From Kofleriaceae bacterium (GTDB taxonomy: Bacteria; Myxococcota_A; Polyangia; Haliangiales; Haliangiaceae), in assembly GCA_018057825.1 (NCBI GenBank), contig JAGPCY010000016.1, positions 124,001 to 188,000 on the forward strand: a stretch of 64,000 nucleotides of DNA. Direction: 5' to 3'. The notes under the pieces are model-generated. The model was not told the origin of the DNA. It saw nothing but the letters and a program-made list of their open reading frames with translations, and did not search any database. Shown one piece after another: positions 3,802 through 60,544 of this stretch. A program made the translations under genes and the position numbers. The first letter of the stretch is position 1. Every line of letters starts with the position of its first letter.

Positions 3802-3809
3802 CGACGGAG

Positions 3810-4253: not shown

Positions 4254-4284
4254 GGCCCGGGCGATGGATCGGCCACGAGAACGG

Positions 4285-4314
4285 GTGACTTGGCCGGTCC
4301 CGGGCCCTTAGAAT
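4285..4314 (+). promoter_or_regulatory. putative promoter of the pseudokinase-HOT-thioesterase operon
   Basis: GTGACT (4285-4290) and TAGAAT (4309-4314) are separated by 18 bases and fit sigma70-type -35/-10 elements at four of six positions each. The ATG follows seven bases after the -10, suggesting a leaderless or near-leaderless transcript. Confidence 0.45.
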
Positions 4315-4321
4315 CGAGGCG

Positions 4322-19527: not shown

Positions 19528-21362
19528 GGTGCCTCCGTCGTGAGCTGGGTGCGGTACAGCTCGGCGTAGACGCCGCCGGCGGCCAGGAGCTGGTCGTGGG
19601 TGCCGACCTCGGCGACCCGGCCGTCGTCGAGGACGACGATCTGGTGCGCGGTCCGGACCGCGGCGACCCGGTGCGAGATCAGCAGCGCCGTGCGATCGGC
19701 GAGGATCGCGCGCAGCCGCTCGAGGATCACGGTCTCGGTGGCGGCGTCGACCGACGACAGCGAGTCGTCGAGGATGAGCAGGCGGGGCTCGGCGGCCAGG
19801 GCCCGGGCCAAGGCGACGCGCTGGCGCTGGCCGCCGGACAGGGTGATGCCGCGCTCGCCGACCACGGTGGCGTAACCCTCGGGCATGGCCTCGAGGTCGC
19901 GGGCCAGGCCGGCGGCGGTGGCGGCGGCGATGATGCGCGGCGGGACCTGGCCGTCGGCGACCACCGAGGTGGTCGGGGCGGCGCCGACCGCCGCCAGCTC
20001 GTCGGCCCGGGCCCGCGGCAAGGTCGAGCCGACGCCGTAGCCGAACCCGATGTTGTCGGCGATCGTGGTCGAGAACAGGAAGGCGTCTTGCGGCGCGTAG
20101 CCGATGGCCGCGCGCAGGTCGGCCAGGGGCAGGGTCGTGACATCGCGGCCGTCGAGGAAGATCGTGCCGGCTGGGACCTCGAGCAGGCGGCACACCGCCT
20201 CGACCAGGGTGGTCTTACCGGCGCCGGTGCGGCCGACCAGCGCGGTGGTGGTACCGGCGGGGATCGTCAGGCTGACCCGGTCGAGGACGGTGCGGTCGCC
20301 GCGGGTCAGGGTCAGGTCGCGGACCTCGAGGCCGCCCTGGCGCTCGGCGTCGGCCAGGGCCGGGCCGGGCCCGTCGACCACGGTCGGCGCGGTGGCCAGG
20401 AGCGAGGCCAGGCGCTGCCACGAGGCCTGGCCGCGCTGCAGGAGCGACAGCATCCAGCCCAGGGCCAAAGTCGGCCACACCAGGCGGGCCAGGTACTGGG
20501 TCAGCTCGATCAGCTCGTCGAGCCCGAGGCGGCCGTCGAGGTGCCGGCGGCCGCCGAGGTACAAGACCAGCACCATCGCGATCGAGCCCAGGCCGGCGAA
20601 CACCGGGCCCATCGCGCCGCGGATCCGGGTCAGGTCCATGTTGCGATCGAGCAGGCGGCGCGACGACGCGACGAAGCGCGCGCGGCGATCGGCCTCGAGG
20701 CCGTAGGTCTTGATCGCCGCGATCGCGGTCAGGTCCTCCTGGATCTCGTTGGACAGCGCGCCGAGCTGGGCCTGGACCCCCATCGACGACCGGTAGATGC
20801 GCTTGCCGAACAGGCGACCAGCCAGGACGATCGTCGGGTAGGGCAGGCAGGCCCACAGGGTCAGCCACGGATCGATCCGCAGCATCATCGTGAGGACGGT
20901 GACGAACGCGAACAGGGTGTTGACGATGTTGAGGACGCCGGCCCCCCACATCGCCCGCACGGTCTGGACGTCGTTGGTCAGCCGCGACATCGTGTCGCCG
21001 GTCGGGTGGGTGGTGTGGTACGGCCCGTCGAGCGTGAGCAGGTGGCGGAACAGATCGCCGCGCAGGTCGTACTCGGCGGCGCGGGCGGCGTTGAAGATCC
21101 ACACCCGCGACAAGATCCGGGTGACCGCGGTGCCGAGCGCGAAGCCGATCATCGCCAGGCACAGCCACACCACCTGGTGCTCGGGGTCGCCGCGCTCGAG
21201 GGCGACGATCACCTCGCCGGTGGTGACCGGGATCCCGAGGAACAGGACGTTGGTCGCGATCAGCATCGCGATGCCGCCGCCGATGCCCCGATCGTAGCGT
21301 CGGAGGTAGCTCCACGGGCCGAGCCGGGCGGGCGACGTGGGGCCTGACACCGGCCACGGCAT
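19524..21362 (-). CDS. ABC exporter half-transporter, subunit A (degenerate catalytic site)
   Basis: A 612-residue half-transporter with a six-helix membrane domain (about 30-320; TLDGPYHTTHPTGDTMSRLT is the conserved coupling region) and an ATPase domain with GRTGAGKTT, GYAPQDAFLF, signature TLSGGQRQR and switch LLISHRVAAV. Walker B is LLILDDSLSSVD: the catalytic Glu is replaced by Asp, typical of the non-hydrolysing site in heterodimeric exporters. An Ala-rich insert of about 30 residues follows the Q-loop (GSTLPRARADELAAVGAAPT). The ATG at 21360-21362 gives MPWPVSGPTS and is the nearest start before the membrane domain. It is the first gene of a pair with subunit B. The 196-base gap to the divergent giant TPR gene should contain both promoters. 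Confidence 0.9.
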   Translation of the reverse strand: MPWPVSGPTSPARLGPWSYLRRYDRGIGGGIAMLIATNVLFLGIPVTTGEVIVALERGDPEHQVVWLCLAMIGFALGTAVTRILSRVWIFNAARAAEYDLRGDLFRHLLTLDGPYHTTHPTGDTMSRLTNDVQTVRAMWGAGVLNIVNTLFAFVTVLTMMLRIDPWLTLWACLPYPTIVLAGRLFGKRIYRSSMGVQAQLGALSNEIQEDLTAIAAIKTYGLEADRRARFVASSRRLLDRNMDLTRIRGAMGPVFAGLGSIAMVLVLYLGGRRHLDGRLGLDELIELTQYLARLVWPTLALGWMLSLLQRGQASWQRLASLLATAPTVVDGPGPALADAERQGGLEVRDLTLTRGDRTVLDRVSLTIPAGTTTALVGRTGAGKTTLVEAVCRLLEVPAGTIFLDGRDVTTLPLADLRAAIGYAPQDAFLFSTTIADNIGFGYGVGSTLPRARADELAAVGAAPTTSVVADGQVPPRIIAAATAAGLARDLEAMPEGYATVVGERGITLSGGQRQRVALARALAAEPRLLILDDSLSSVDAATETVILERLRAILADRTALLISHRVAAVRTAHQIVVLDDGRVAEVGTHDQLLAAGGVYAELYRTQLTTEAP

Positions 21363-21467
21363 ACCCGACCGCGGCGGCCGCGACAAGCGGCCGCGGCCAG
21401 TGGCGATGTCCAGCCGCGCGCACCGAAAAACGATCGGCAATCCGGACCGTTTGGCTCGGACGTCGCG

Positions 21468-21497
21468 TTGTTTCGCCGTCGCGTCCGGCGGTAGCAT
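21468..21497 (+). promoter_or_regulatory. putative promoter of the giant TPR gene
   Basis: TTGTTT (21468-21473) and TAGCAT (21492-21497) are 18 bases apart, inside a locally AT-richer stretch (about 21425-21475) in the gap between divergent genes. The leader to the ATG would be about 55 bases. The -35 match is weak. Confidence 0.3.
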
Positions 21498-21558
21498 CGA
21501 GCCGCGCTCGGAGGCGCCGCGCGGTGGGCGCGGTCCCCCGATCCGCCCCCCATCCGCC

Positions 21559-24500
21559 ATGGCCGATCTCCAGACCGTCCTCTCGCGCCTCGACAGCGAT
21601 CCCGATGATCCCCACGTGCTGGCCGGGTTGGCGGCCATCACCGAGGCCGCGCGGGCCGGCCTCGACGTCGCCGGGGCGGCGGCCGTGGCCCACCTGCGCA
21701 AGCGCTGTCGCGATCGCGGTCGGCCCGACGTCGCGCTCAAGCTGTTCGACGCCGAGCTGGCCGGGACGACCGGGCCGCGGGTCGCCGACCTGCTGATCGC
21801 CAAGGCCGAGCTCCTCGACGAAGATCTGCTCGATCCGCGGGCCGCCGAGGCCTGCTACCAGGCGGCGCTGTCGGTGCGCCCCGACGCCGCCGCCGCCACC
21901 GAGGCCCTCGAGTCGATCGCCTTGGCCCGCGACAACTGGCAGAAGTTCGCCGCCAAGTACGTCGACGAGGCCAAGGCCTCGACCGACCGCGAGCTGACCA
22001 CCGCGCTCTACCTGTCGGCGGCCGAGACCTACGCCCGCTACGCGCCCGAGGCCCCCGAGGTCGAGGCCCACCTGCGGGCGTCGCTGGCCGCCGATCCGCG
22101 CAACGCCAAGGCCGGGGCCCACCTGCAGCGCCTGCTGGCGCGGGCCGGGCGCTGGGCCGAGCTGGCCGAGACCCTGGCGGCGCGGGTCGATCACGCCGCG
22201 ACCAGCGAGGAGCGCGTGCCGGCGATCCTGGCGCTGGCCGAGGTCACCCGCGGGCCCCTGGCGCAGCCCGAGCGCGCCCTCGAGCTGTACAAGAAGGTGG
22301 TCGCGATCGATCCGGCCCAGCCGAGCGCGCTCCGGGTGCTGGGCGACGCCCTCGCCGCCGGCGAGAACTGGCAGGCCCTGGTGACGCTCTACGGCGCGGC
22401 CCTGCGGGCCCGCGGCGGCGACGGCGATCTCGGGATGCTCCTCCAGGTCGGGATGATCCTGTGGAAGCGGCTGGCCGACCTCGAGGCCGCCGAGGACTAC
22501 TTCCGCCGCATCCGCAAGCTCGACGCCTCCCACCCGGTGGCCCTCGACTTCTACCGCGCGTACCACGGCGGGCGCGGCGAGGGCGGCAAGCTGGTGGCGA
22601 TCCTGCGCCAGGCCGAGAAGGCGCTGCCGGTCGGCGCCGCCGACACCGACGGTCGCGCCAAGGCGCTCGCGGTCGAGATCGCCGAGCTGTCGGAGCACCA
22701 GCTCGGCACCCCCGACAAGGCGATCGACGCCTGGAAGCAGCTCCTGCGGACCGATCCGACCTCGACCGAGGCGCGGGCCGCGCTGCGCCGGCTGTACCGC
22801 AAGGCCGAGAAGTGGAACCCGCTGCTCGATCTGATCAAGGACGAGATCGAGCGGCTGCCCGAGGCCGAGGTCGCGGGCAAGATCGCCGGGCTCTACGAGG
22901 TGGTCGCGATCTACGCCGACAAGCTCCGGCTCGATCCGATGGTGCTCAACACCTACAACGCGATCCTGCGCCTCGATCCGGGCGACCTGCGCGCGATCGA
23001 CGAGCTGGCCGGCAAGTACCGCGCGATGGGCCGGTGGCAGGACCTGATCGGCATCCTGGCCAAGAAGGCGGAGCTCGAGGCCCTGCCGGTGGCCGACCGC
23101 GCCGCGATCCTGCGCGAGAGCGCCGAGCTGTGGATCGAGCGGTTCGGCAACTACGCCCAGGCGATCCGTCCCCTCGAGCGCCTGCTCGAGCTCGACCGCA
23201 ACGACGCCGACGCGGTGGCGCGCCTGAAGGACATCTACACCCGCCGTCGGCAGTGGCGTCAGCTCATCACTCTCCTGGGCCACGAGGCCGAGGCGCTGAC
23301 TGGGGCCGACCGCCGCGCCAAGCAGAACGAGATGGCGCGGCTGGCGGCCGAGCGGGTCGGCGACACCCGCCTGGCGATCGAGATCCACTGTCGGACCCTG
23401 GCCGAGGCCGGGCCCGGGATCGGCCGCGCCGGCGACGGTCAAGACGAGACCTACGCCGCCCTGGCCGGACTCTACGAGCGCGAGAAGCGCTACCTGGCGC
23501 TGGCCGAGATCCTCGGCCGACAGCGGGTCCGGGCCGCGACCACCGCCGAGGCGGTGGCCCTCCTCGAGAAGCAGGGCGCGCTCCTGGCCGATCGGATCGG
23601 CGCGCCGGCCCTGGCCGCCGAGGCCTTCGCGGCGATCCTGGCGATCGAGCCGCACCACGCCAAGGCGCTGCGCACGCTGCGCGAGCTATACGCGGCGGCG
23701 GCCGACTGGGAGCGCCTCGAGGCGCTGTACCTCGGCCTCGGCCAGAGCGATGAGCTGGTCGACGCGCTGGTCGCCTTGGCCGATCGCCAGGACGATCGCG
23801 AGCTGCGGCTGGCGCTGGTGCGGCGCGCGGCCCGGGTCGCGAGCGAGCGCCAGGAGCCCGAGCGCGCGGCCCGGGTGTGGGAGCGCCTGCTGGCGATCGA
23901 GCCGACCGACGCCACCGCGGCCCGCGCCCTGGTGCCGGTCTACCAGAAGGCCGACAAGCCGGCCAAGCTCCTGCCGGTCTACGAGGTCCTCCTCGGGCAC
24001 TGCACGACCACCGCCGAGCGGCTGGCGCAGATCGCCGAGATCCGCGCGCTGTGCGAGCAGCGCCTGGGCTCGCGGGCCCTAGCCTTGTCGTGGACCGCGC
24101 GGGCCTTCGAGCTGGCCCCCGACGAGCCCGCCCTCGTCGGCGAGCTGTTGCGCCTGGCCCAGGGGCCGGAGCACTGGCGCGACGTGGTCGCGGTGCTCGA
24201 GCGCCACGCCGACGCCGACGCGCGCCCGGTCGAGACCCGCCTGGCGCTCCTGCGCGCCCTGGCCGGCGTCTACCGCGACAAGCTCGACGACGACGCCGCG
24301 GCCCGCGGCGCCCACCAGCGGATCCTCGCCCTGGCGCCTGGCGATCGCGACGCCGAGGCGGCGATCGAGGCGCTGTCCGAGGAGCTGTCGGATTGGCCCG
24401 GGCTCCTGGCGTCGTACCGCCGGCAGCTCGAGCGCGCCGCCCCCGAGGCCCGGCGCGGCCTGTTCGCCAAGATCGCTCAGGTCGAGGAGGAGCGGCTGGC

Positions 24501-27500
24501 GGATCTCGACGCGGCCGCGGCCACCCACGGCCAGGTGCTGGCCGAGGCGCCGACCGACGCGGCGGCGCTGGCGGCCCTGGCCCGCCTGCACGAGGCGCGC
24601 GGCGACTGGGACGGCCTGGCGACGGTCTTGACGACCCAGCTCGCGGTCGCGGCGCCCGAGGCCCGCGCGGCGCTCGAGCTGCGGCTGGCCACCCTCGAGG
24701 ACGGCGCGCTCGATCGGCCGACCGCGGCGCTGCCCCACTATCGCGGCGCCCTGGCCGCGCTGGCGCCGCCGCCGGCGACCTTGCTGGCGGCCTGCGTCCG
24801 CTACTTGCCGGGGGGCGCGCGCGCCTCCGCGATCGACGACGACACCCGTCGGGCCCTGGCCCGCGAGCTGCGCCCGCACCTCGACGCCGCTGGGGACCCC
24901 GCGGCGCGCCTCGCCGCCCTCGGCTGCCTGGCCAGCGATCCGGCGGCCGCGCCGGCCGTGGCCCGGGCCCTCGACCGCGAGATGGTGCCGCTGTTCCACG
25001 CGCTCGGCCGGGCCGAGGAGGCCTGGGCCCCGGCGCTGCGAGTGGTGGCCGATGCGCCCGGCGACGTCGACGCCCGCGGCGCGCTGATCGATCTGGCCGA
25101 GGAGCTGGGCCGGCCGCGCGAGCTGGCGGCGGCGCTCAGCGACGCGCTGACCGCGCTGCGCAAGAGCGGGGCGCCGACCGTCGAGGTGCTGGCGATGGCC
25201 CAGGGCCTGGCCCGTCGGGTCGCCGCCGACCCGACCACCGCGGCCGGGGCCGAGCGGGCGTGGTTGACCGTGCTCGAGATCGCGGCCGACGACGCCGAGG
25301 CCTACGGCGCCCTGGCGGCGCTGTATCGCAAGGACGCGCGCTGGCCGGATCTGCGGGCCCTCCTCGAGCGCCAGATCGAGGTCGCGGTCGAGCCGGCCGC
25401 CAAGCTCGTGGCCCTCGGTGAGCTGACCACCCTCGACGAGGACGTCCTGGGCGATCCCAGCCAGGCGGTGGCCGACTACCGCCGGATCCTCGAGCTCGAG
25501 CCCGGCCACCTGCCGGCCTACCGGGCCCTCGAGCGCCTGTACGCCGACGGCGAGAGCTGGGCCGATCTCGAGGCGGTGCTGGCCGCCGAGGCGGCCTGGG
25601 TGCCCGAGGCCGCGCAGGCCGCGCTGCGCTTCCGCCGCGCCGAGCTGCGCGCGCGCCGCCTGGGCGATCGCCTCGGGGCCGTGGACCTCCTCGAGGAGGT
25701 GGTCGCCGCGCACCCGAGCCACGCCGACGCCCGCGAGCTCCTCGAGGAGCAGCTCGCCCAGCCCGAGCTGCGGCAGCGGGTGGCCGCGATCCTCGAGCCG
25801 CTCTACCAGCGCGATCACCTGTGGCGCGATCTGGTCGGGGTCTTGCGGATCCAGCGCGAGGCGGTGAGCGGGCCCGAGGCCGCGGCGCTGCTCGGTCGCA
25901 TCGCCGGCCTCGAGGAGCGCGAGCTCGACCACGGCAAGGCCGCGTTCGAGACCTGGGCCCAGGCGCTCTACGCCGATCCGGGCGCGCCCGCGCCGTCGCA
26001 GGCGCTGCTCCGCCTGGCCGCGACCTACGATCGCTGGCACGACGCCGCCGCCGCCTTCGAGCGGGCCGCCGACGTCGCCGGCGATGACGTCGCGGTGGCG
26101 GCGCCGCTGCGCGCCCACGTCGCCGAGATCTGCGATCGCTCGCTGGGCGACAACCCGCGGGCGATCGCCGCCTACCGGGCCCTGGTCGCCCTCGACCCCA
26201 GCGACGTCGAGCGGGCCGGCCCGGCCCTGGCCGCGCTGGCCCGGCTGCACGAGGAGGAGGAGCAGTGGCGCGAGCTGCGCGAGGTGGTGGCGCGACAGGC
26301 CGACCTCGACGGCGCGAGACGCCTGGGCTTCCTGGCCCGGGCCGCCGAGCTCGACGAGACCCGCCTCGGCGATCCCGATCGCGCGATCGCGACCTGGCGC
26401 GAGGTCGCGGCGGACGATCCGGCCAACGCCGGCGCGATCGCCGCCCTCGAGCGCCTGTACCAGGCCCGCGATCGCTGGGCCGATCTGGCCGAGCTGGTGC
26501 GCCTGAAGATCGATCTCGCCGACGAGCCGGCGATCAAGATCGGCGAGCTGCGCCGACTGGCCGAGATCCACGAGGTCATGCTGGCGGCGCCGGCCGAGGC
26601 CATCGTCGCCTACCTCGAGATCCTCGACCTGGCGGCCGACGACGTCGCCGCGCTCGACGAGCTGGCCCGGCTCTACCGCGAGGCCAACCGCCCCCTCGAT
26701 CGCCTCGACATCCTCGAGCGCCGGCTGGCGGTGGCCGACGCCCGCGCCGACGCCGATCGGGTGCCGCGCCGCGCCGAGCTGGCCGGGCTCCTCGCCGAGC
26801 TGCGCCGCGGCCCCGAGGCCCTCGAGCGCTGGGCCGAGATCCTGACCCTCGACCCCGAGCACGCCGCGGCCACCGCGGCGGTCCGGGCCGGCTTCGACGA
26901 TCCCGAGCTGGCGCCGCGCGCCGGCGCGATCCTCGAGCCGCTGTACGAGGCCACGGGCCGCGATCGCGAGCTGGCGGAGCTCTTGACGATCGCCGCCGAG
27001 CGCGAGTCGAGCGCCCGCGAGCGGGTCCGGCTGTGGAGCCGGGTCGCGACGATCCACGAGGGTCGGCTGAGCGATCGCCCGGCGGCGTTGACCGCGGCGG
27101 TGGCGGCGCTGCGCGCGGCGGTGGCCGAGCCCGAGCTGCCCGAGACGATCGCGGTCGTCGATCGTCTGGCCGGGGAGCTCGAGCGCGAGGTCGAGCTGAT
27201 CGCGATCTATCGCGACGTCGCCGACGACGTCCTCGACAGCGGGGTGCAGCGACGGCTGTACCTGGACATCGCCGATCTGGCGCAGGCCGCGGTGGGCGAT
27301 CTCGAGCTGGCCTGCACCTATTACCAGCGCGTCCTCGAGGTCGCGCCCGACGACGTCCGCGCCCTGGGCGCCCTCGAGCGGATCTACCGTGAGCGCCTGC
27401 GCGGCGGCCGCACCGCCGACGCCGCGCCGCTCTACGAGATCCTGGCCCGCAAGGCCGACCTCGCCGGCGCCGACGTCGCGGCGCGAACCGCGGCCCTGGC

Positions 27501-30500
27501 CGAGATGGCCGAGCTGGCGGCCGGTCCGCTGGCGCGGCCCGACGACGCGATCGCCGCCTGGGAGCAGGTGCTCGAGGCCTTGCCGGCCCACCCCCAGGCC
27601 GCCACCGCGCTCGACGCGATGTACCGGCGCGAGCGGCGCTGGCGCGATCTGGTCGACCTCTACGAGCGCCGGCTCGGCTTCGTCGACACCCTCGACGAGG
27701 CCATCGCGCTGCGGGTCAAGCTCGGCGAGCTCCACGAGCACGAGCTGGGCGACGTCACGACCGCGATCGAGAGCTACGCCGCGGCGCTGGGCGGCGACCC
27801 CGGCCACGTCGGCGCGATCGCCGCCCTCGAGCGGCTGCTGGCCCACCCCGACGGTCGGGCCGCCGCGGCCGAGGTCCTCGAGCCGGTCTACATCTCGCGC
27901 CACGACTGGGCCCGCCTGGCCCGGCTCTACGAGATCAACCTCGACGGCACGGTCGAGCCCGACGCCCGGGTCGATCTGATCCGGCGCATCGCCCGCCTCC
28001 ACGAGGAGCAGCTCGAGGACCTCGACGCCGCCGCGCGCTGGTACGCCCGGCAGCTCGCCGAGGATCCCGCCGATCCCCACGTCCGCGATCAGCTCCACCG
28101 CCTGGCCTCGGTCGGCGGCGACTGGGCCGGCCTGGCCGCGACCTATCAGCAGGTCCTCGACGCCGACTCCGGCGACGCCGCCCACCTGCGCGACCTCGCG
28201 GTCGCGGCCGCGACGATCTACGACCGCCGGCTCGATGATCCGGTGCGCGGCGGCGCGGCCTATCGCCGGGCCCTGACCGCGCCGGCCCCGGCGGTCGACG
28301 ATCGGCTCGAGCTGTTGTCCCGGGCCGAGGCCCTGTTCGCCCGTCATCAGGCCTGGCCGGCCTTGATCGGCCTGTACGACGACGCCATCGCCGCCGCCGA
28401 CACCGACGACGTGCTGCGCCGCGATCTGTACGCCCGCAAGGCCGCGATCCTCGAGGAGCGCACCGCCGATCCGGCCGGCGCGATCGACGCCTGGCGCGCC
28501 GTGCTCGAGCTGGCCGACGGCCTGGCCGCGCGTCTCGACTACGCGCGCGCCGCCGATCACCTCGATCGGCTGTACCGCGTCACCGGGCGCTGGCACGACC
28601 TCGCCGAGCTCGGCGCCGACCGCATCGAGCGCGCGACCGACGAGCGCGACGAGATCGATCGCCGCCTGGCCCAGGCCGACGTCCTCGAGCGCCACCTCCA
28701 CGATCTCGACGGTGCCCTCGATCAGTACGAGGAGATCCTCACCACCGCCAGCCCCGATCGCGCGCTGCCCGCCCTCGAGCGCCTGGCGGCGGGCGCGGCC
28801 GGCCGCGAGCGCACGCTGGGCCTCCTCGAGCCGGTGTACCGGGCCCGCAACTGGTGGCAGAAGCTGGTGGTCGTCCTCGACGCCAAGCTCGAGTTCGTCC
28901 GCGATCCGGTCGAGCAGGTCGAGACCCTCACCGAGATCGCCGCGATCCACGAGAGCCGCGGCGGTGACCTCGGCATGGCGCTCGACGCGCTGGCCCGGGC
29001 CTGGCGCCTCGAGCCGACCCGCCATGACGTCTTCGAGCGGCTCCTGGCCCTGGGGAGCCGGATGGGCGCGTGGGACGAGCTGTGCGCGACCCTTGCCGCC
29101 GGGGCCGCGGCGACGATGGATCCGCCGACCCAGGAGCTGGCGCTGGCGCGCCTGGCTGAGCTCCAGGAGACCCAGCGCGGCGATCACCCGGCGGCGATCG
29201 CGGCCTGGCGTCAGGTCCTCGAGGTCAGCCCCGACGATCCGCTGGCGCTGTCGGCCCTCGATCGGCTGCTGGCGCTCGAGGCGCGGTCCGAGGAGCTGGT
29301 CGCGGTGGTGGCCCGGCGGGCCGCCCTGGCCGACGACGCCAAGGTCCGGCTGGTGCTCCTGCACCGGATCGCCGCGCTCCACGATCAGGTCCTCGAGCGG
29401 CCGGCCGACGCGATCGTCGCCTACCGCGAGGTCCTGGCCGAGGCACCGGAGGACGAGGTCGCGCTGGTCGCCCTCGAGCGGCTGTATCGGGCCAGCGGCG
29501 ATGGTCGCGAGCTGGCCTCGGTCCTCGAGCAGCGCCTGGCCCTGGCCGACGACGCTGACGCGCAGCGCGCGCTGCGCCTCGATCTGGCCGCGGTCTACGA
29601 GCGCGAGCTGCGCGATCCGTTCGCCGCGATCGCCCACCTCGAGGCCACGCTGGCGGCCGACGCCGGCGACGCCACCGCCCTGGCCGAGCTCGATCGGCTC
29701 TACGCCGACGGGCGGATGTGGCCCGAGCTCCAAGACGTCCTCGATCGTCGAGCGCTCCTGGCCACCGACGCCGGCGCCCGGGCCGAGCTGGCGTACCGCG
29801 CCGCGCGCCTGACCGAGGTCGAGCTGGGCGAGGTCGAGGTCGCGGTCGGCCGCTACGGCGCGGTCCTGCAGATCGCGCCGGGCCACGCCGGCGCCCGGGC
29901 CGCCCTGGACGCGCTCCTGGCCGGCGACGATCACGCCGAAGCGGCGGCCGCGCTCCTCGAGCGCCATCTGCGCGCGGCCGGCGACGCCGACGGACTGGTC
30001 CGGGTCGCCGAGCGCCGCCTCGAGCTGCCCGCCGATCGCGAGGCCCGACGGGCCCAGTGGGCGGCGCTGGCCGATCTCCACGAGACCCTGCGCAGCGACC
30101 TGCGGGCCGCCGCCCAGACCTGGGCCCGGGCCCTGCACGAGGATCCCACGGACACCGCGCTCCTCGGGCCCCTCGAGCGGCTGGCCCAGGTCCGCGGGAG
30201 CTGGGCCGAGCACGCCGCCCTCCTCGAGGGGCAGCTCGCCGGCGGGCGCCTCGACGCCGAGCTCGAGCACGGCTACGCGATGCGGCTCGGCAAGGTCTAC
30301 GAGGAGGCCCTGGGCGATCTGGCTCGCGCCGCGACCAGCTACCGCCGGGCCGCGACCACCAACGTCGACGAGGTCGCCGCCCTGGCCGCCCTCGACCGCG
30401 TGCTGTGGCGCCAGAATCGCTGGGGCGAGCTGGCCGAGGTCCTGGCCCGCGAGGCCGAGCTGGCCGAGTCCGACGCGGTCGCCGCCGACCTGCTGTTCCG

Positions 30501-32862
30501 CCTGGGCGACGTCCGCGAGAGCCAGCTCCGCGACCTGGCCGGCGCGGTCGAGGCCTACCGCAGCGTCATCGAGCGGGCGCCGCGCCACGGCGCCGCCCGC
30601 GCTTCGCTCGAGCGCCTGCTGGCGGTCGCCGAGTCCGAGCGGGGCGCGATCATCGACACCCTCGAGCCGCTGTACGAGGCCGAGGGCGATTGGGGGCGGC
30701 TGGCCGATCTGCTGGCCGCCAAGCTGGCGGTCACCGACGATCGCCACGAGCGAGCGGCGATCTACCAGCGGATCGCCGGCCTGGCCGAGTCGCGGCTCGG
30801 CGATGGCGTCCGCGCCCTCGACGCCGCCGGCGGCTGGCTGGCCGAAGATCCCGCGGCCAGCGAGGCCCTGGCCGAGGTCGATCGCCTGGCGGCGCTGCAG
30901 GGCCGCTGGGTCGAGGCGGCGGCGCGGGTCGCCGGGGTGGCCGGCGCGCTCGACGACGCCGGCGCGCTGCCGCTGTGGATGTACGTCGGCACGATCCAGC
31001 TCGATCGCATCGGCGACGCCGCCGCCGCGGCCGCCAGCTTCGATCGCGCCCTGGCGATCGACGACGAGCACGGCCCGGCCCTCGAGGGCCTCGAGCGCAT
31101 CCACCGCTCGCGCGGCCAGGTCGCGCCGTTGGCCGAGGTGCTGGCCCGCCGCGCCGGGCTGGCCTTCGACCCGCCGACCAAGCAGGCGCTGTGGACCGAG
31201 GTCGCGACCCTGCGCGAGCGCGTCGGCGACGACCCCGGCGCGATCGCCGCCTGGGAGGCGGTGATCGATCTGGCCGATGACGATCGCATGCCCTTGGCGC
31301 GCCTGGCGGCGATCCACGAGCGGCGCGGCGACCTGCGCGCCCTGGTCACCACCCTCGGGCGCGCCGCGCGGATCGCCGGCGACGCGGGCGAGGAGAAGCG
31401 CCTGCGGGTCCGGATCGCCGAGCTCGAAGGCCAACTCGGCGATCTCGGCGCGGCGGCCGCCGCCTGGCAAGGCGTGCTCGATCTCGATCCCGACGATCTC
31501 GGCGCCCTGGCCGCCCTCGAGGAGCTCCACACTCGCGGCAAGGACTGGATGGCGGTGCAGGACGTCCTCACGCGCCGGCTCGAGCTGGCGCGGTCGTCGA
31601 GCGACAAGACCGCGGTCCTGGCCAAGATGGCGCGCCTGGCCGAGCGCGAGCGCGGCGCGCTCGACGACGCGATCGGTCACTGGTACGCCGCCCTCGACGT
31701 CGACAACGCCCAGCTCGCCGCCTACGGCGAGCTCGAGCGCCTGCTGGCCAAGGCCGAGCGCTGGCACGATCTGGTCGAGCTGCTCGATCGGCGCGCCGAG
31801 CTCCACGGCACCCTGGGCGACAACGACGCCGAGATCGCGGCGCTGGCCCGGGCCGCCGACATCTGGGAGGGCCCGCTCGACAACCCCGACGCCGCCGGCG
31901 AGCTCCTCGAGAAGGTGCTGCGGCGCGAGCCCGGGTCGGTCGCGGCGCTGACCCGGCTGGCGCGCATCTACGAGCGAGCCAGCGACTGGGACAAGTGCGG
32001 CGAGGTCCTGGCCAAGGCCCTGGCCCTCGGGCCCAAGGGCACCGACGCCGCCGATCTGTTCTTCCGCCTGGGCGAGGTCGCCGACAAGGCCCAGGGCGAT
32101 CGCGCCACCGCCGCTGCCCACTACCGCCAGGCCTTGACCCACGATCCGCGCCACGCCGGCGCGATCGCGGCCCTCGAGCGCCAGGCCAAGGACGACGGCA
32201 ACTGGGCGGTGGTCGCCGACATGCTGAAGCGCCGGATCGCGATCGGCGAGGATCGCGGCGACGACGTCTTGCCGCTGGCGCTCGAGTACGCCGCCGCCGA
32301 GCAGCGCCTCGGCACACCGGCGGCGGCGCTGGCGGTCCTCGAGCGGGTCGCCGCCGCGGCCCCGGGCGAGGTCCGGGTGCTGACGCTCCTGGGCGATCTG
32401 TACTTCGCGGCCGGACGGCTCGACGAGGCGGCGCCGATCTACGACCGCCTGGCCGAGGACGCCAAGGCGGCGCGGCGGATGAAGGACGTCGCGCGCTACC
32501 GCCAGCGCCAGGGCGGCATCCTCGAGGCCCGCGGCGACGTCGCCGGCGCGGTCGCGGCCTACGAAGAGGCGTTCCGCGTCAACCCGACCGACGTCCCGAC
32601 CATGGCCGGGCTGGGTCGGCTGGCGCTGGCGCAGCGCGACTGGGAGAAGGCGCGTCGCGTCTATCGCTCGCTGGTCTTGCAGAACCTCGACGCCGACGCC
32701 GGCCTGACCAAGGCCGACGTCTACTACGCGCTCGGGGTCATCCACGTCGAGCTGGGCGAGGCGCCCAAGGCCAAGGGCATGTTCCAGCGCGGCCTCGAGA
32801 TCGACCCCAAGGATCAGCGCCTGAAGGACGCCCTGGCCGGGCTCGATCAGCGTCCGGCCTGA
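21559..32862 (+). CDS. giant tetratricopeptide-repeat protein
   Basis: A 3767-residue protein built almost wholly of helical TPR-like repeats with a period of about 73-76 residues, so about fifty units. A typical unit has ALxxLERLYR, then W(R/A)DLxxLLERRxELA, then LxRIAxLxExxLGDxxxAIAAW, then VLExxPDDxxAL. No signal peptide, membrane segment or catalytic motif was seen, suggesting a cytosolic superhelical scaffold for protein binding. The composition is strongly acidic/Ala/Leu-rich and repeats differ from each other throughout, so the array is old rather than freshly amplified at the DNA level. The ATG at 21559 (MADLQTVLSRL) opens the helical part; earlier in-frame codons encode a non-helical Arg/Pro/Gly-rich stretch. 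Very long TPR proteins of unknown role are known in myxobacteria. It stands alone, converging on the HEAT-repeat gene 15 bases away. Confidence 0.92.
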   Translation: MADLQTVLSRLDSDPDDPHVLAGLAAITEAARAGLDVAGAAAVAHLRKRCRDRGRPDVALKLFDAELAGTTGPRVADLLIAKAELLDEDLLDPRAAEACYQAALSVRPDAAAATEALESIALARDNWQKFAAKYVDEAKASTDRELTTALYLSAAETYARYAPEAPEVEAHLRASLAADPRNAKAGAHLQRLLARAGRWAELAETLAARVDHAATSEERVPAILALAEVTRGPLAQPERALELYKKVVAIDPAQPSALRVLGDALAAGENWQALVTLYGAALRARGGDGDLGMLLQVGMILWKRLADLEAAEDYFRRIRKLDASHPVALDFYRAYHGGRGEGGKLVAILRQAEKALPVGAADTDGRAKALAVEIAELSEHQLGTPDKAIDAWKQLLRTDPTSTEARAALRRLYRKAEKWNPLLDLIKDEIERLPEAEVAGKIAGLYEVVAIYADKLRLDPMVLNTYNAILRLDPGDLRAIDELAGKYRAMGRWQDLIGILAKKAELEALPVADRAAILRESAELWIERFGNYAQAIRPLERLLELDRNDADAVARLKDIYTRRRQWRQLITLLGHEAEALTGADRRAKQNEMARLAAERVGDTRLAIEIHCRTLAEAGPGIGRAGDGQDETYAALAGLYEREKRYLALAEILGRQRVRAATTAEAVALLEKQGALLADRIGAPALAAEAFAAILAIEPHHAKALRTLRELYAAAADWERLEALYLGLGQSDELVDALVALADRQDDRELRLALVRRAARVASERQEPERAARVWERLLAIEPTDATAARALVPVYQKADKPAKLLPVYEVLLGHCTTTAERLAQIAEIRALCEQRLGSRALALSWTARAFELAPDEPALVGELLRLAQGPEHWRDVVAVLERHADADARPVETRLALLRALAGVYRDKLDDDAAARGAHQRILALAPGDRDAEAAIEALSEELSDWPGLLASYRRQLERAAPEARRGLFAKIAQVEEERLADLDAAAATHGQVLAEAPTDAAALAALARLHEARGDWDGLATVLTTQLAVAAPEARAALELRLATLEDGALDRPTAALPHYRGALAALAPPPATLLAACVRYLPGGARASAIDDDTRRALARELRPHLDAAGDPAARLAALGCLASDPAAAPAVARALDREMVPLFHALGRAEEAWAPALRVVADAPGDVDARGALIDLAEELGRPRELAAALSDALTALRKSGAPTVEVLAMAQGLARRVAADPTTAAGAERAWLTVLEIAADDAEAYGALAALYRKDARWPDLRALLERQIEVAVEPAAKLVALGELTTLDEDVLGDPSQAVADYRRILELEPGHLPAYRALERLYADGESWADLEAVLAAEAAWVPEAAQAALRFRRAELRARRLGDRLGAVDLLEEVVAAHPSHADARELLEEQLAQPELRQRVAAILEPLYQRDHLWRDLVGVLRIQREAVSGPEAAALLGRIAGLEERELDHGKAAFETWAQALYADPGAPAPSQALLRLAATYDRWHDAAAAFERAADVAGDDVAVAAPLRAHVAEICDRSLGDNPRAIAAYRALVALDPSDVERAGPALAALARLHEEEEQWRELREVVARQADLDGARRLGFLARAAELDETRLGDPDRAIATWREVAADDPANAGAIAALERLYQARDRWADLAELVRLKIDLADEPAIKIGELRRLAEIHEVMLAAPAEAIVAYLEILDLAADDVAALDELARLYREANRPLDRLDILERRLAVADARADADRVPRRAELAGLLAELRRGPEALERWAEILTLDPEHAAATAAVRAGFDDPELAPRAGAILEPLYEATGRDRELAELLTIAAERESSARERVRLWSRVATIHEGRLSDRPAALTAAVAALRAAVAEPELPETIAVVDRLAGELEREVELIAIYRDVADDVLDSGVQRRLYLDIADLAQAAVGDLELACTYYQRVLEVAPDDVRALGALERIYRERLRGGRTADAAPLYEILARKADLAGADVAARTAALAEMAELAAGPLARPDDAIAAWEQVLEALPAHPQAATALDAMYRRERRWRDLVDLYERRLGFVDTLDEAIALRVKLGELHEHELGDVTTAIESYAAALGGDPGHVGAIAALERLLAHPDGRAAAAEVLEPVYISRHDWARLARLYEINLDGTVEPDARVDLIRRIARLHEEQLEDLDAAARWYARQLAEDPADPHVRDQLHRLASVGGDWAGLAATYQQVLDADSGDAAHLRDLAVAAATIYDRRLDDPVRGGAAYRRALTAPAPAVDDRLELLSRAEALFARHQAWPALIGLYDDAIAAADTDDVLRRDLYARKAAILEERTADPAGAIDAWRAVLELADGLAARLDYARAADHLDRLYRVTGRWHDLAELGADRIERATDERDEIDRRLAQADVLERHLHDLDGALDQYEEILTTASPDRALPALERLAAGAAGRERTLGLLEPVYRARNWWQKLVVVLDAKLEFVRDPVEQVETLTEIAAIHESRGGDLGMALDALARAWRLEPTRHDVFERLLALGSRMGAWDELCATLAAGAAATMDPPTQELALARLAELQETQRGDHPAAIAAWRQVLEVSPDDPLALSALDRLLALEARSEELVAVVARRAALADDAKVRLVLLHRIAALHDQVLERPADAIVAYREVLAEAPEDEVALVALERLYRASGDGRELASVLEQRLALADDADAQRALRLDLAAVYERELRDPFAAIAHLEATLAADAGDATALAELDRLYADGRMWPELQDVLDRRALLATDAGARAELAYRAARLTEVELGEVEVAVGRYGAVLQIAPGHAGARAALDALLAGDDHAEAAAALLERHLRAAGDADGLVRVAERRLELPADREARRAQWAALADLHETLRSDLRAAAQTWARALHEDPTDTALLGPLERLAQVRGSWAEHAALLEGQLAGGRLDAELEHGYAMRLGKVYEEALGDLARAATSYRRAATTNVDEVAALAALDRVLWRQNRWGELAEVLAREAELAESDAVAADLLFRLGDVRESQLRDLAGAVEAYRSVIERAPRHGAARASLERLLAVAESERGAIIDTLEPLYEAEGDWGRLADLLAAKLAVTDDRHERAAIYQRIAGLAESRLGDGVRALDAAGGWLAEDPAASEALAEVDRLAALQGRWVEAAARVAGVAGALDDAGALPLWMYVGTIQLDRIGDAAAAAASFDRALAIDDEHGPALEGLERIHRSRGQVAPLAEVLARRAGLAFDPPTKQALWTEVATLRERVGDDPGAIAAWEAVIDLADDDRMPLARLAAIHERRGDLRALVTTLGRAARIAGDAGEEKRLRVRIAELEGQLGDLGAAAAAWQGVLDLDPDDLGALAALEELHTRGKDWMAVQDVLTRRLELARSSSDKTAVLAKMARLAERERGALDDAIGHWYAALDVDNAQLAAYGELERLLAKAERWHDLVELLDRRAELHGTLGDNDAEIAALARAADIWEGPLDNPDAAGELLEKVLRREPGSVAALTRLARIYERASDWDKCGEVLAKALALGPKGTDAADLFFRLGEVADKAQGDRATAAAHYRQALTHDPRHAGAIAALERQAKDDGNWAVVADMLKRRIAIGEDRGDDVLPLALEYAAAEQRLGTPAAALAVLERVAAAAPGEVRVLTLLGDLYFAAGRLDEAAPIYDRLAEDAKAARRMKDVARYRQRQGGILEARGDVAGAVAAYEEAFRVNPTDVPTMAGLGRLALAQRDWEKARRVYRSLVLQNLDADAGLTKADVYYALGVIHVELGEAPKAKGMFQRGLEIDPKDQRLKDALAGLDQRPA

Positions 32863-55967: not shown

Positions 55968-55986
55968 CCGATCGGCCGAGCGGTCA
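55965..55986. terminator. candidate bidirectional terminator containing both stop codons
   Basis: TGACCG (55965-55970) pairs with CGGTCA (55981-55986) around ATCGGCCGAG. The two ends are the stop codons of the convergent kinase and DUF917 genes. The stem is short, so termination is only suggested. Confidence 0.3.
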
Positions 55987-57087
55987 GCCGCCGAACGGCA
56001 CGTAGGGTCCGGCGTAGCCGATGGCGGCGAGCTGGGCCCGGAACTGATCGACGATGAACGGCACCCGCATCGCCGGTACCGACGGCTGCGCCACCACCGT
56101 CACCACCGTGCCTGGGGCGGCCTGGGGATCGGCGTTGGAGAACCCGACGCCGTCGTCGGTGAGAAAGCAGATCAGATCGGGCGCCATGGCCAGCGGCGCC
56201 GCGCTCTTCGACGACCACGCGATCAAATTCTCGTTCTGGTTGTAGATCGTCAGCACCGAGCCGTCGTCGCACGTGACCACCGTGGTCCCCAGGTCGAACC
56301 CGCCGCTGGTGGTCTCGCCGTGGCTCTTGATCGGACCGCGCCCGAGGACAGTGCCGCCGAGGAAGGCCACCGCGGCCGCGACCTTGCCCCCGGCCGGCGC
56401 CTGGCGGATGGTCCGTCCGAGCTCGAGCGCGTAGCGGGTGGTGCCGAGGACCGCCGCGGTCCGCACGGTGGCGCCGGTCATCGTCCACATCGCGATCCCT
56501 GCGTTGTCGCCGAGGCCGTCGATCACGCCGCGCAAGACCGCGTCGGCGGTGATCGCGTCGGGGACGTCGAGCCCCAGCGTCTGGGTCGGGCTGGCGATGA
56601 TCATCGGCGCGATCGGCACCCCGGCGGCGGCGTAGGTGTCCTCGCCCAGCGCTGGGATGGCGCGGCGCGCGCCGGCGCAGTCGACCACCGGCAGAGCCGG
56701 CGACAGCCCGGCCGCCACCGCCATCGGGATGAAGGTGTTGCCGGCGCCGACCTCGCCCGGCAGGACGAAGGCCAGGGGCGCCGCGGCCTTGGCCGACAAG
56801 GCGGTGAAGGCGGTGAGCGCCGGCGTGTAGTCGAAGTCGCCGGTGACCGCGTCCGGGGCGCCGGCGAAGGCCGACACCGCGCCCAGGGCGTCGTCGGGCA
56901 GGTCGGCCGGATCGATGAGCTGCGGCAACGTGCCCGCGGCGACCAGGCGATCGATGATCTGTTGACCGATCGATCGCGGGCCGCCGCCGCCGGCGCCGAG
57001 CACGGCCGCGCCGTTCAGGAGGTCGTCGAGATCCTGCGCGGTCAACGCGCTGGCAGGCGGGGCGGAGGTGGGGGGCGGCTTGTTCAC
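55984..57087 (-). CDS. DUF917 family protein
   Basis: A 367-residue protein of the DUF917 (S-methyl-thiohydantoin-desulfurase-like) family: LLNGAAVLGAGGGGPRSIGQ matches the family's N-terminal glycine-rich motif, followed by PLAFVLPGEVGAGNTFIPMA, PVVDCAGARRAIPALGE and KSHGETTSGGFDLGTTVV. DUF917 proteins include enzymes acting on hydantoin-like compounds, often with hydantoinases, which are absent here. The GTG at 57087 is chosen because GAGGAG lies five bases before it on the minus strand; an ATG at 57129 would add 14 residues and lacks such a site. It is 48 bases downstream of the VioB-like gene and probably in the same operon, so it may act on that protein's product (inference). Confidence 0.85.
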   Translation of the reverse strand: MNKPPPTSAPPASALTAQDLDDLLNGAAVLGAGGGGPRSIGQQIIDRLVAAGTLPQLIDPADLPDDALGAVSAFAGAPDAVTGDFDYTPALTAFTALSAKAAAPLAFVLPGEVGAGNTFIPMAVAAGLSPALPVVDCAGARRAIPALGEDTYAAAGVPIAPMIIASPTQTLGLDVPDAITADAVLRGVIDGLGDNAGIAMWTMTGATVRTAAVLGTTRYALELGRTIRQAPAGGKVAAAVAFLGGTVLGRGPIKSHGETTSGGFDLGTTVVTCDDGSVLTIYNQNENLIAWSSKSAAPLAMAPDLICFLTDDGVGFSNADPQAAPGTVVTVVAQPSVPAMRVPFIVDQFRAQLAAIGYAGPYVPFGG

Positions 57088-57135: not shown

Positions 57136-59130
57136 TCACGTGGTCTCGCCGCGCTGGACCCGAGCGATCCAGCGCTGCAGCAGGCGGCGCTTGCCGTCGG
57201 ACAGCTCGCGCGTGATCGGCATGTACAGGGTCGAGCCCCACGCGCTGGCGTCGGTCAACATCGCCAGCATCGTCGCGGCGCGCTCGCACGCCGCCTGGTC
57301 GTTGAGCGGCAGGTGGGCGTCCATCACCGGGTACAGCTTGTAGAAGTACCGCAGGACCTCGGCGTAGACCCGATCCCAGGTGACCTCGTCGTCGGGGATG
57401 GCGTCGAGGTGGGCGTCGGACGGCAGCACGCGGACGTGGACGAAGTACAGGTCGGCCCACGCGGTGGCGAAGCCGTTCAGATCCGGCGGCGGCGGATTGG
57501 CGCCGTCAGGGGCGAACACCAGGATGCACATGCCGGGATCGACCCCGGTGAGGGTCAAGCGCAGCGTGCCATCGGCGTCGGTCATCCCGCCCTGCGGATC
57601 GACCGTGACCACCGCGTAGGGGTTGGCCGGATCATCGCCGGCGCCGGCCGGCTTGCGATCGGACCACGGCCGGGTCACCGGCACGGTCAGCTTGGCCGGC
57701 ACCGCCTGGGTGCCGTCGGGCGACGCCGGCAGGATCTCCAGCGAGCGATACTGCTGGATCATCACCGGCACCGGACCCGACGGGACCACGCCGCGGGCGC
57801 GGACCTGGACCGCGATCGACTGCGAGGCGCCGGCGGTGAGGTAGGTCGCGCGGTCGTCGCTCTCGGCCACCAGCGGGGTCTCGACCAGGAGCGGCCCGGG
57901 CACGGGCACCGTCGGGGTCCCGGCCGCCACCAGCCGCAGGGTCCCGCTGGCGATCGTCGGCCCTAGGCCGTCGGGGATCGGCAGCTCGACCACGCCGGCC
58001 CCAGCCAGGTAGGTCGCGGCGTCGTAGGGCACCGGGCCGATCGGGTGGGCCAGGCCCGCGGCGTCGACCACCTCGAGCGCGGCCGCGCCCAGGTCGAGCT
58101 TGGTCAGCGCCGACGCCGGTGGCATCGGCGCGTCCAGCGGCGGCGGCGGCACGAGCTGATCGCGAAACGCCGCGATCAGATCGAGGGCCACGGTGTCGCC
58201 GATCACCTTGGCGGTGGCCGGCGCGAGCTGGAACGTCGACACGAAGACGTCGGGCACCGGGTTGGTCAAGACCGCCCCCGGGTTGAGCCGGCGGCCGTCG
58301 GGCACCGAGCCCCACTCGCCGGGCAGCCACGGCGCGATCGTCCCCAGCACGACCCCGATCGATTGGTTGAGGACGGTCTCGCCCAAGGCGAAGCGCTGGG
58401 CCAGCTCGGGATCGGTGAAGGTGCGATTGAAGTAGTAGGTCGCGAACCGCACCACCAGGCCGAGCCCGGCCGCCGCCGCCTCGGCCAGGGCCGCGATCGC
58501 CGGCGAGCCGGTCGCGGTGAACGCCAGGGTCGCGTTGGGCAACGCGAGCTGCCAGGTCGCGGCGAAGGTGGCGTCGGGGAACACCGCCGGGTTGCGCGTC
58601 AGGTCGAGCCAGCGCGAGTGGGCCCGGGGCAGCGCCGCGGTGGCGCTGGTGGTCGCGGTCAAGCCGGGCCCGCCGCCGCCGACCGCGAGCTGGGCGGCGA
58701 AGATCTGCGACGAGAAGTCCGAGGTCGGATCGATGTCGACGATGATCGCCGGCGTCGGCTGATCGCCCCAGGTGTTGCCGAGGAGCGCCACCGGCTGGCC
58801 GAGGATCGGATCGCCCGCGGTGATCCGGCCGCCGGTCGGCGGGTCGTAGGCGGTGATCGCGGTGTCCTTCCACACCACCGAGTTGTCGCCGTAGTAGTTC
58901 CAGTTGCTCTCGAGGACCTGGGCGATTCCCATGTTCACGATCGACAGGTTCTTCAGCACCAGCGACTTCATCGCCTGGCGGAACTGCGCGTCGGACATCG
59001 CCAGGAAGCGCGGGTAGAGCGTGGCCTGTTGCGGCTCGACCACCAGATCGTAGTTATTGTTGTTGGCGGTCGGCGTCGACACCGCCATCGTGCCGCGGAA
59101 GTGCAGGCGGGGACGATCGAGGGCGCTCAT
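57136..59130 (-). CDS. VioB/RebD N-terminal-domain-like protein without the ferritin-like half
   Basis: A 664-residue protein. The start ALDRPRLHFRGTMAVSTPTA followed by a poly-Asn run resembles the start of VioB and RebD/StaD (pattern LDxPRxHFxG...PTAN), enzymes that couple two indole-pyruvate imine units in violacein and rebeccamycin synthesis. The end also matches the close of VioB's first half: VLRYFYKLYPVMDAHLPLND, then LYMPITRELSDGKRRLLQRW. In VioB a ferritin-like catalytic domain follows; here the protein stops. There is no signal peptide, and two Ala-rich beta-rich regions lie between. The ATG at 59130 overlaps the stop of the cytochrome-like gene. Function unknown: a binding domain or a partner of an unlinked ferritin-like protein is possible. 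Confidence 0.7.
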   Translation of the reverse strand: MSALDRPRLHFRGTMAVSTPTANNNNYDLVVEPQQATLYPRFLAMSDAQFRQAMKSLVLKNLSIVNMGIAQVLESNWNYYGDNSVVWKDTAITAYDPPTGGRITAGDPILGQPVALLGNTWGDQPTPAIIVDIDPTSDFSSQIFAAQLAVGGGGPGLTATTSATAALPRAHSRWLDLTRNPAVFPDATFAATWQLALPNATLAFTATGSPAIAALAEAAAAGLGLVVRFATYYFNRTFTDPELAQRFALGETVLNQSIGVVLGTIAPWLPGEWGSVPDGRRLNPGAVLTNPVPDVFVSTFQLAPATAKVIGDTVALDLIAAFRDQLVPPPPLDAPMPPASALTKLDLGAAALEVVDAAGLAHPIGPVPYDAATYLAGAGVVELPIPDGLGPTIASGTLRLVAAGTPTVPVPGPLLVETPLVAESDDRATYLTAGASQSIAVQVRARGVVPSGPVPVMIQQYRSLEILPASPDGTQAVPAKLTVPVTRPWSDRKPAGAGDDPANPYAVVTVDPQGGMTDADGTLRLTLTGVDPGMCILVFAPDGANPPPPDLNGFATAWADLYFVHVRVLPSDAHLDAIPDDEVTWDRVYAEVLRYFYKLYPVMDAHLPLNDQAACERAATMLAMLTDASAWGSTLYMPITRELSDGKRRLLQRWIARVQRGETT

Positions 59131-60314
59131 CGCTTGGCCTCGCGCAGCGACCACACGAAGTCGAGGGCGGTGAACTGATCCGGGCCGGGGCCAAACGGCG
59201 CCGTCGGCGGCGCGCCGGTGGGCCCGACCAGGTTGCCGCCGCTGAGCGTGAAGAAGTCGAGGCGCGGCTTGGCGCCGGTCGAGACCGAGGCCAGGGCGTG
59301 GCACGAGATGCACGACGAGGTGGCCTGGAAGTAGGTCTCGATCTGGGTGTTGGCCAGGAGCGTGGGCTGACCGTCGTCGGTGGTGAAGGTGGTCTGGATC
59401 CCCATGAGCTGGTAGGACGCCCACGGCGTGCCGGCCAGCCGGGCCTGGAAGCGGGCGTTGGCCTCCGCCACCGCCGGCGCGAGCGGCAGGCGAGGCGTGA
59501 CCCCGGTCGTGGTCGGGTTGTCGACCTGCTCGAAGGTCATCCAGATCCAGTCGGGCCGGGCCTTCGACGTCACGTGGAGCCCGGTCAAGAGCACGGTCAC
59601 CGGCAGCGGGGCGCCGCCGCCGTCGCTCGGCATGCGGGCCTGGGCGACCAGGTACCGGGTGACGTCGTCGGCCGGGGTGGCGAGCCGCCACGACGCCTTG
59701 ATCTCCATGGCCTCGGGCGGGAAGGTCACCGGGGCGGCGCCCGGGTTGCGCAGCGCGGCCTGGCCGGCCCAGCCGTAGAGCCCGCGGTCGACGACGTAGC
59801 CGAAGGTCGCCTGGTTGACCGCGACCGTGTACGTGATCGGCGCGCCCTGGCGGTCGGCCAGGGTCCGGCCGTCGATCTCGCCCAAGGACAGAAGCGGCGG
59901 CCCGGGCGGTCCGCCGTCGTCCCACGGCCCGGGCGCGACGCCGCCGGCCAGGTAGGTCTCGTGGACCTCCTTCCAGGTCTGCCACACGGTCGGGGTCGCG
60001 CCGAGCGGGCGGCTCGGATCCGGCACCCCGCGGCGCCCGGCGGTGGCCGGCCAGTTCAGGTACAGAAACACCAGCCACGCCGCGTCGGGGCTCGGGTCGG
60101 CGGCCAGGGTGGCCGGGACGGTGGCGACCGCCGCGACCTCGGCCAGGGTCGGCGCGCCGGTGCCGGCCGACGGGAGACGGCCATCGCGGGGCGCGGTGCC
60201 GCCGTCGCGGTCGCCGTCGCGCGGGCCGGGCGCCGGGCCCGGGCGGGGCGAGTCGGAACGGCCGCAGGCGCCCAAGGCGACGGTGGCGGAGAGCAAAGGC
60301 GCGATCAACCGCAA
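59127..60314 (-). CDS. c-type cytochrome-like lipoprotein
   Basis: A 395-residue exported protein. The start is a TTG at 60314: LRLIAPLLSATVALGAC gives a lipobox (ALGAC), and a G-rich run lies four bases upstream. An Asp/Arg/Pro-rich flexible tether follows (about 20-50). Near the C-terminus SSCISCHALAS contains one CxxCH heme c site (about residue 348); other conserved-looking parts are VWQTWKEVHETYLAG and WIWMTFEQVDNPTTTG. One covalent heme on a membrane-tethered periplasmic protein suggests electron transfer. An axial Met could not be assigned. First gene of a three-gene unit with the VioB-like and DUF917 genes, coupled by a four-base overlap (ATGA). Confidence 0.75.
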   Translation of the reverse strand: MRLIAPLLSATVALGACGRSDSPRPGPAPGPRDGDRDGGTAPRDGRLPSAGTGAPTLAEVAAVATVPATLAADPSPDAAWLVFLYLNWPATAGRRGVPDPSRPLGATPTVWQTWKEVHETYLAGGVAPGPWDDGGPPGPPLLSLGEIDGRTLADRQGAPITYTVAVNQATFGYVVDRGLYGWAGQAALRNPGAAPVTFPPEAMEIKASWRLATPADDVTRYLVAQARMPSDGGGAPLPVTVLLTGLHVTSKARPDWIWMTFEQVDNPTTTGVTPRLPLAPAVAEANARFQARLAGTPWASYQLMGIQTTFTTDDGQPTLLANTQIETYFQATSSCISCHALASVSTGAKPRLDFFTLSGGNLVGPTGAPPTAPFGPGPDQFTALDFVWSLREAKR

Positions 60315-60478: not shown

Positions 60479-60544
60479 ACTAGACTGACGTGTCAGTCCA
60501 CGACTAGACTCCCATGTCACCAGCGACTAGACTGACGCGTCAGT
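60479..60544 (+). promoter_or_regulatory. three direct repeats with TGACGYGTCA palindromes, probable operator region
   Basis: ACTAGACT recurs at 60479-60486, 60503-60510 and 60526-60533 (24 and 23 bases apart). Copies one and three continue as ACTGACGTGTCAGT (60484-60497) and ACTGACGCGTCAGT (60531-60544), inverted repeats, the last a perfect palindrome. Copy two keeps only the GTCA half (CCCATGTCACC). TAGACT inside the unit resembles a -10 box. The site lies 50-115 bases before the activase start, in a 280-base gap. Spacing of about two helical turns suggests cooperative dimers. The rest of 60315-60594 shows no gene. Confidence 0.65.

Follow-up and report, generated by a model that had tools for sequence, protein, structure and literature searches.

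The window (the whole stretch of DNA analysed, 64,000 nucleotides in length) carries on its minus strand a gene for a stand-alone relative of the N-terminal, non-ferritin part of VioB (VioB-N), preceded by a gene for an exported heme lipoprotein. The features of the locus are listed below.

55984..57087, minus strand: DUF917 / S-Me-THD-like protein, 367 aa; a neighbour judged to lie outside the module
57136..59130, minus strand: stand-alone VioB-N protein, 664 aa; homology to RebD-type residues 1-594
59127..59130, minus strand: ATGA shared by the stop of the heme gene and the start of VioB-N; translational coupling
59127..60314, minus strand: exported lipoprotein with a single c-type heme, 395 aa; begins with TTG, lipobox LGAC, CISCH at 335-339
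60484..60544, no strand assigned: two 14-bp palindromes (ACTGACGYGTCAGT), operator-like, in a divergent intergenic region

A sequence-only reading of this DNA had described a 664-aa open reading frame that keeps both ends of the non-ferritin half of VioB. Both ends are present in the gene at 57136-59130: the protein begins MSALDRPRLHFRG, carries LDRPRLHFRG near its start, and has LYMPITRELSDGKRRLL near its end. The protein ends once the N-terminal part is complete, at residue 664, and matches no Pfam family; the ferritin-like half is absent. The described coupling to an exported single-heme lipoprotein was also evident in the ATGA overlap, and the lipoprotein has one CxxCH. The DUF917/S-Me-THD gene does follow VioB-N, and behind it lies a Ser/Thr kinase-AAA-TPR gene. 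On the heme-gene side of the pair is a divergent BcrAD/BadFG-type activase gene. In 22 predicted genes of the window that were scanned with Pfam, there was no ferritin-like domain, no flavin monooxygenase, and no amino-acid oxidase such as a tryptophan oxidase, in agreement with the claim that no such oxidase or monooxygenase is nearby.

Judged by sequence comparison, the VioB match of the window protein is far beyond chance. With hhalign, it is collinear with residues 1-594 of full-length actinobacterial RebD-type proteins (E 1.5e-36). The NCBIfam VioB model (TIGR04492) matches it in two stretches, up to position 584 of 1003 (E 5.3e-30), and also matches 24 of the 25 members of our VioB-N family alignment. 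A search of PDB sequences gave no useful matches. The earlier reading had suggested a comparison with VioB residues 1-450; the relationship to VioB and RebD stands, but its extent is greater, and these alignments indicate that the protein covers the non-ferritin part of VioB in full and is not a fragment of about 450 residues. Compared with VioB/RebD/StaD (iminophenyl-pyruvate dimer synthase, TIGR04492), the window protein thus shares the whole non-ferritin part, but it lacks the ferritin-like half, scores 104 bits against an equivalog cut-off of 1250 (and so falls below it), has no tryptophan oxidase nearby, and is accompanied by a dedicated c-type heme lipoprotein.

The AlphaFold2 model of VioB-N is of good quality (pLDDT 87, pTM 0.90) and includes a predicted Ig-like beta-sandwich at residues ~418-570, identified with Foldseek; residues 1-417, queried as part of the whole 664-residue model, had no credible match. 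Fourteen positions are invariant across 25 VioB-N sequences (M1, P7, R8, G13, N23, W77, N78, G81, D317, G348, G447, P601, M603, and R641). The suggestion that stand-alone copies might share cofactor-binding residues found no counterpart among conserved histidines or cysteines: in the same 25 sequences, no column is at least 40 per cent His, and Cys reaches 40 per cent at best, in one column. This speaks against VioB-N itself holding a metal or heme. From these sequences, a role in substrate binding or as a scaffold, with the redox centre elsewhere, would suit the protein.

By reading, the window VioB-N has no signal peptide and starts directly with the VioB motif. The same holds for the VioB-N proteins of those relatives that were read, while the heme partners read do have signal peptides. 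The two proteins therefore present a compartment puzzle, in that VioB-N lacks an export signal and its partner is exported, which leaves direct contact between them unexplained. Either the two act in steps on opposite sides of the membrane, or VioB-N is exported by a route that its sequence does not reveal.

Every intact heme partner that we found has exactly one CxxCH, and His247 is invariant in 19 of 19 aligned partners. Foldseek alone returned no significant match for the AlphaFold2 model of the heme protein, which is of moderate quality (pLDDT 78, pTM 0.80). In a structural ranking, rows 1-17 were all cytochrome P460 or c'-beta, with Z 5.4-6.4 and rmsd 3.7-4.9 over 125-137 residues, though a Z of this size can arise by chance; the next row had Z 4.5. 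A sequence link to P460 was considered and rejected. The P460 family model (PF16694) matched none of the heme-protein alignment members at E 1 and nothing in the window's genome, and hhalign gave a probability of 13-30 per cent, which exceeded all 200 column shuffles but is not evidence because the shuffles destroy the CxxCH motif. Like cytochrome P460 and c'-beta, the heme protein is exported, with a single C-terminal CxxCH and a predicted central beta-sheet, but it is about twice as long, has no Pfam match, and compares weakly at the profile level. The models thus weakly support a protein that is P460-like in predicted fold and not a member of the P460 family. Distant relatives of the heme protein on plasmids adjoin either a tyrosinase-family gene or a pair of GMC-oxidoreductase and sorbitol-dehydrogenase genes, a setting that suits a redox partner of oxidoreductases.

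We found the heme gene followed by VioB-N on the same strand in 27 genomes from Myxococcota, Cyanobacteria, Planctomycetota, and Proteobacteria. These comprise seven myxobacteria (including the window), Gloeothece, Xenococcus, Telmatospirillum, Marinobacterium, one planctomycete, and fifteen Pseudomonas. The alignment used to scan contigs for related loci was made up mostly of heme-linked sequences, and the scan overstates the share of VioB-N that is heme-linked. The 4-base overlap of the window recurs at one other locus (L024), and most relatives have a gap of 3 to ~112 nt. Thirteen Pseudomonas loci hold two heme/VioB-N units in tandem, one of them (L051) with broken reading frames. Searches of phage and viral collections found no relatives, and a nucleotide search of E. 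coli with the gene from Pseudomonas gave no match.

Within the window's own order, profile searches found both genes in the same 7 of 35 genomes and neither gene in the other 28. The pair is contiguous in six of the seven; in the remaining genome (G399), it is split over two short contigs. The heme-gene and VioB-N trees are congruent (Mantel r 0.96), and none of 2000 permutations reached this value (best 0.34), although the permutation leaves species relatedness in. Both trees place unit 1 of Pseudomonas with Telmatospirillum, and its unit 2 with Marinobacterium and a myxobacterium. The two paralogous units of a single genome nevertheless each keep their pairing, and shared species history does not account for that. 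The two-gene pair is real and ancient. Its conservation across phyla and its co-inheritance make a functional two-component unit likely, and we are highly confident that the heme protein and VioB-N are functionally coupled. The expectation of a conserved three-gene order held for these two genes but not for DUF917, which lies beside the pair only in near relatives, and there on the other strand.

Some of these loci fall within ebo/EDB-type clusters, namely in Pseudomonas, Marinobacterium, and Telmatospirillum. In Pseudomonas, homologues of eboD, C, A, B, E, and F are followed by the pairs and then by an NHL/strictosidine-synthase-like gene. Marinobacterium has the same layout with one pair and with no eboD in the stretch examined, and in Telmatospirillum the pair stands ahead of eboA, B, F, D, E, and C. 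As described in the literature, the EDB cluster of P. fluorescens NZI7 contains a full ebo cluster together with further reading frames that are not ebo genes, some of which carry signal peptides, and mutants in this cluster no longer repel C. elegans (PMC6282210). The EDB cluster has also been tied to indole products (PMC9655573, PMC6282210). EDB-type loci of fifteen Pseudomonas genomes hold homologous pairs, in thirteen of these genomes two in tandem, and the NZI7 cluster itself would be expected from its genus to hold heme/VioB-N pairs. No paper that treats ebo and VioB together came up in a literature search combining the two. The window pair differs from the Pseudomonas arrangement in having no adjoining ebo genes, its neighbours being the kinase, DUF917, and BcrAD/BadFG-type activase genes, and queries with EboB and EboE had no match in the window's genome (a search without an internal positive control).

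VioB-N also occurs with other partners. In Azospirillum, Spirosoma, Pseudarcicella, Undibacterium, and a second copy in Gloeothece, a separate ferritin-like gene adjoins a stand-alone VioB-N, an arrangement that we call split VioB; the three of these ferritin-like proteins that were scanned match PF12902 at E 7e-49 to 5e-68. Chitinophaga and a Saprospiraceae genome have VioB-N followed by an exported kelch-like protein, with neither a heme nor a ferritin-like partner, and a stand-alone VioB-N in Enhygromyxa likewise has neither. VioB-N thus acts as an independent module whose partners can be exchanged, redox partners apparently among them.

The best explanation, in our view, is a conserved two-gene module in which VioB-N would handle a substrate and the heme lipoprotein would oxidise it, a reading to which we give about even weight. 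VioB-N would bind or shape a small aromatic substrate, perhaps one derived from indole-3-pyruvate, without a redox centre of its own. The partner would supply that centre, as ferritin-like iron in split VioB and as heme c in the window pair. The substrate of VioB and RebD is an imine derived from indole-3-pyruvate. The individual parts of this reading differ in strength. The pair probably carries out an oxidative tailoring step on an aromatic metabolite. That the heme partner itself oxidises the metabolite handled by VioB-N is a proposition on which we are evenly divided, and an indolic substrate is less likely than not. Weighing against the reading are the export signal on just one of the two proteins, the lack of a nearby tryptophan oxidase and of EboB or EboE matches in the window's genome (in a search without an internal positive control), and the VioB-N copies of Enhygromyxa, Chitinophaga, and Saprospiraceae that have neither kind of partner.

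The most serious competitor is that VioB-N never contacts the pathway substrate and instead helps to scaffold or mature the heme lipoprotein, or whatever that protein works with. The heme protein would then be the functional part, for example as a c'-beta-like sensor that binds NO or small molecules, or as an electron carrier. In its favour are the strict pairing and co-inheritance, the different compartments implied by the signal peptides, and the lack of conserved metal ligands in VioB-N. Ig-like domains such as that of VioB-N are common in proteins for binding and adhesion, the closest predicted folds to the heme protein are c'-beta and P460, and in Bacteroidota the exported kelch-like protein follows VioB-N in place of the heme protein. 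This reading must nevertheless account for the same domain being part of an enzyme in VioB/RebD and split VioB, where it is fused or adjacent to ferritin-like proteins, and the c'-beta match that it draws on reaches Z 5.4-6.4 at most. We consider it unlikely.

A second alternative would make the window protein one half of a split VioB, working with an unlinked ferritin-like protein, while the heme lipoprotein has a separate function and merely travels along. Split VioB does occur in other bacteria with a stand-alone VioB-N of similar length, and the window's genome encodes one PF12902 protein. This single match, however, is on another contig (G000:C80) beside a TP_methylase gene, a different context, and no ferritin-like gene stands beside the window VioB-N. 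The two kinds of VioB-N are also distinct in sequence, as the window protein matches the heme-linked copy 1 of Gloeothece far better than the ferritin-linked copy 2, and the congruent trees bind VioB-N to the heme gene. Where split VioB has a ferritin-like partner, the window pair has an exported heme protein, and we regard this alternative as improbable.

The sequence-only reading had placed DUF917 in a three-gene operon. If so, this thiohydantoin desulfurase-like protein might act in the pathway of the pair. The gene does match the two domain models (PF06032, E 2.6e-27; PF20906, E 4.8e-29), but its scores of 64.3 and 55.4 bits are below the equivalog cut-offs of 440 and 450 for named desulfurases. 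The operon has in its favour that DUF917 lies on the same strand as VioB-N and ~48 nt behind it, an arrangement found in the window only. In close relatives, DUF917 comes immediately after a protein-kinase gene and is encoded on the strand opposite to the pair, and at one locus (L026) the kinase and DUF917 genes stand together 3.4 kb away from VioB-N. DUF917 was not found at loci of the pair in other phyla. It alone is turned round in the window relative to the relatives, so a local inversion, and not a conserved operon, seems to have put it behind VioB-N. The operon claim was therefore abandoned, and a role for DUF917 in the pathway is very improbable. The intergenic palindromes were also considered as regulation of the pair itself and rejected. 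Of 30 family genomes, 25 have them, some of which lack the pair, and they lie mostly beside the activase gene, to which we assign these operator-like sequences. Finally, the lack of a ferritin-like half might suggest the remnant of a full VioB that has decayed, but this is refuted by the seven genomes of the order with open copies of similar length, 61-76 per cent identity, and intact partners, together with the copies in other phyla.

Returning to the two-gene oxidative module, it may act as a tailoring step for a secreted metabolite, probably an indolic one in Pseudomonas EDB clusters, and the heme step would follow export, on the periplasmic side. VioB has been reported to use heme b (PMC9705886), and for scytonemin, steps on opposite sides of the membrane with ebo-dependent export have been proposed (PMC6282210). 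The sequence-only reading had suggested an undescribed oxidative pathway involving a stand-alone VioB-N and a redox partner. A dedicated heme partner conserved across phyla strengthens the latter point; the pathway itself we infer, and in Pseudomonas the EDB-type setting has already been linked to indole products in the literature. A bolder version would make VioB-N a general substrate-handling module with an exchangeable redox partner, and its heme version both a two-component oxidase of a new class, with its halves on either side of the inner membrane, and an as yet unassigned core of the nematode-repellent pathway of Pseudomonas EDB clusters. We offer this as a speculation that is rather less than probable.

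VioB and its relatives make bisindole pigments and drug scaffolds. According to a 2021 review, no structure of VioB was known and its catalytic properties were largely unknown (PMC9705886). That the N-terminal part of VioB occurs naturally without the iron domain, in a conserved form and with either of two redox partners, offers a direct route to the role of that part, and the link to EDB-type clusters opens the heme/VioB-N genes to simple knock-out tests. The heme-paired VioB-N is a real, conserved variant of the VioB family, undescribed in the literature searched, whose function we infer.

Beside the activase gene, which diverges from the VioB-N and heme gene pair, the window carries two short inverted repeats:

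60484-60497, 14-bp palindrome ACTGACGYGTCAGT
60531-60544, 14-bp palindrome ACTGACGYGTCAGT

There were no further copies of ACTGACGYGTCAGT in the 8.9-Mb genome beyond this pair. Among the family genomes, the palindrome was found in twenty-five of thirty, while the reversed control gave no matches. It mostly lies immediately 5' of the BcrAD/BadFG-type activase gene and is frequently paired, with a spacing of about 24 bp. The palindromes probably serve as an operator for this activase gene.

In a related locus, L022, the stretch 3725-5748, which holds an antitoxin/toxin-like pair, splits the upstream region of the heme gene, and a duplicate of the heme gene's 5' region is left beside the palindromes. 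In several close relatives the DUF917 gene comes after the kinase gene and shares its strand; the window copy (55984-57087) is inverted by comparison.

Elsewhere in the window, an exceptionally long open frame of 3850 codons occupies 21310-32859 and contains many TPR repeats. The protein encoded at 1019-2692 has a T4 gp19 tail-tube domain and is possibly a component of a contractile injection system or a phage remnant.

Stand-alone VioB-N genes also occur with other partners. In two Bacteroidota loci (L031:8984-10465 and L037:9224-10654) an exported kelch-like protein, alike in both, is encoded next after the VioB-N gene and takes the place of the heme or ferritin-like partner. A single Gloeothece locus (L007, NC_014533.1:697037-707420) holds both a heme-linked and a ferritin-linked VioB-N, and the two copies flank a sugar-phosphate-cyclase-like (EboD-like) gene. 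The Kofleriaceae genome has one ferritin-like gene, on another contig:

G000:C80:56949-57638 (locus L059), PF12902 ferritin-like gene, the sole one in the genome

Its neighbour is a gene with a TP_methylase domain, and a repetitive stretch lies close by, an arrangement that we take to be reminiscent of split borosin-type RiPP loci.
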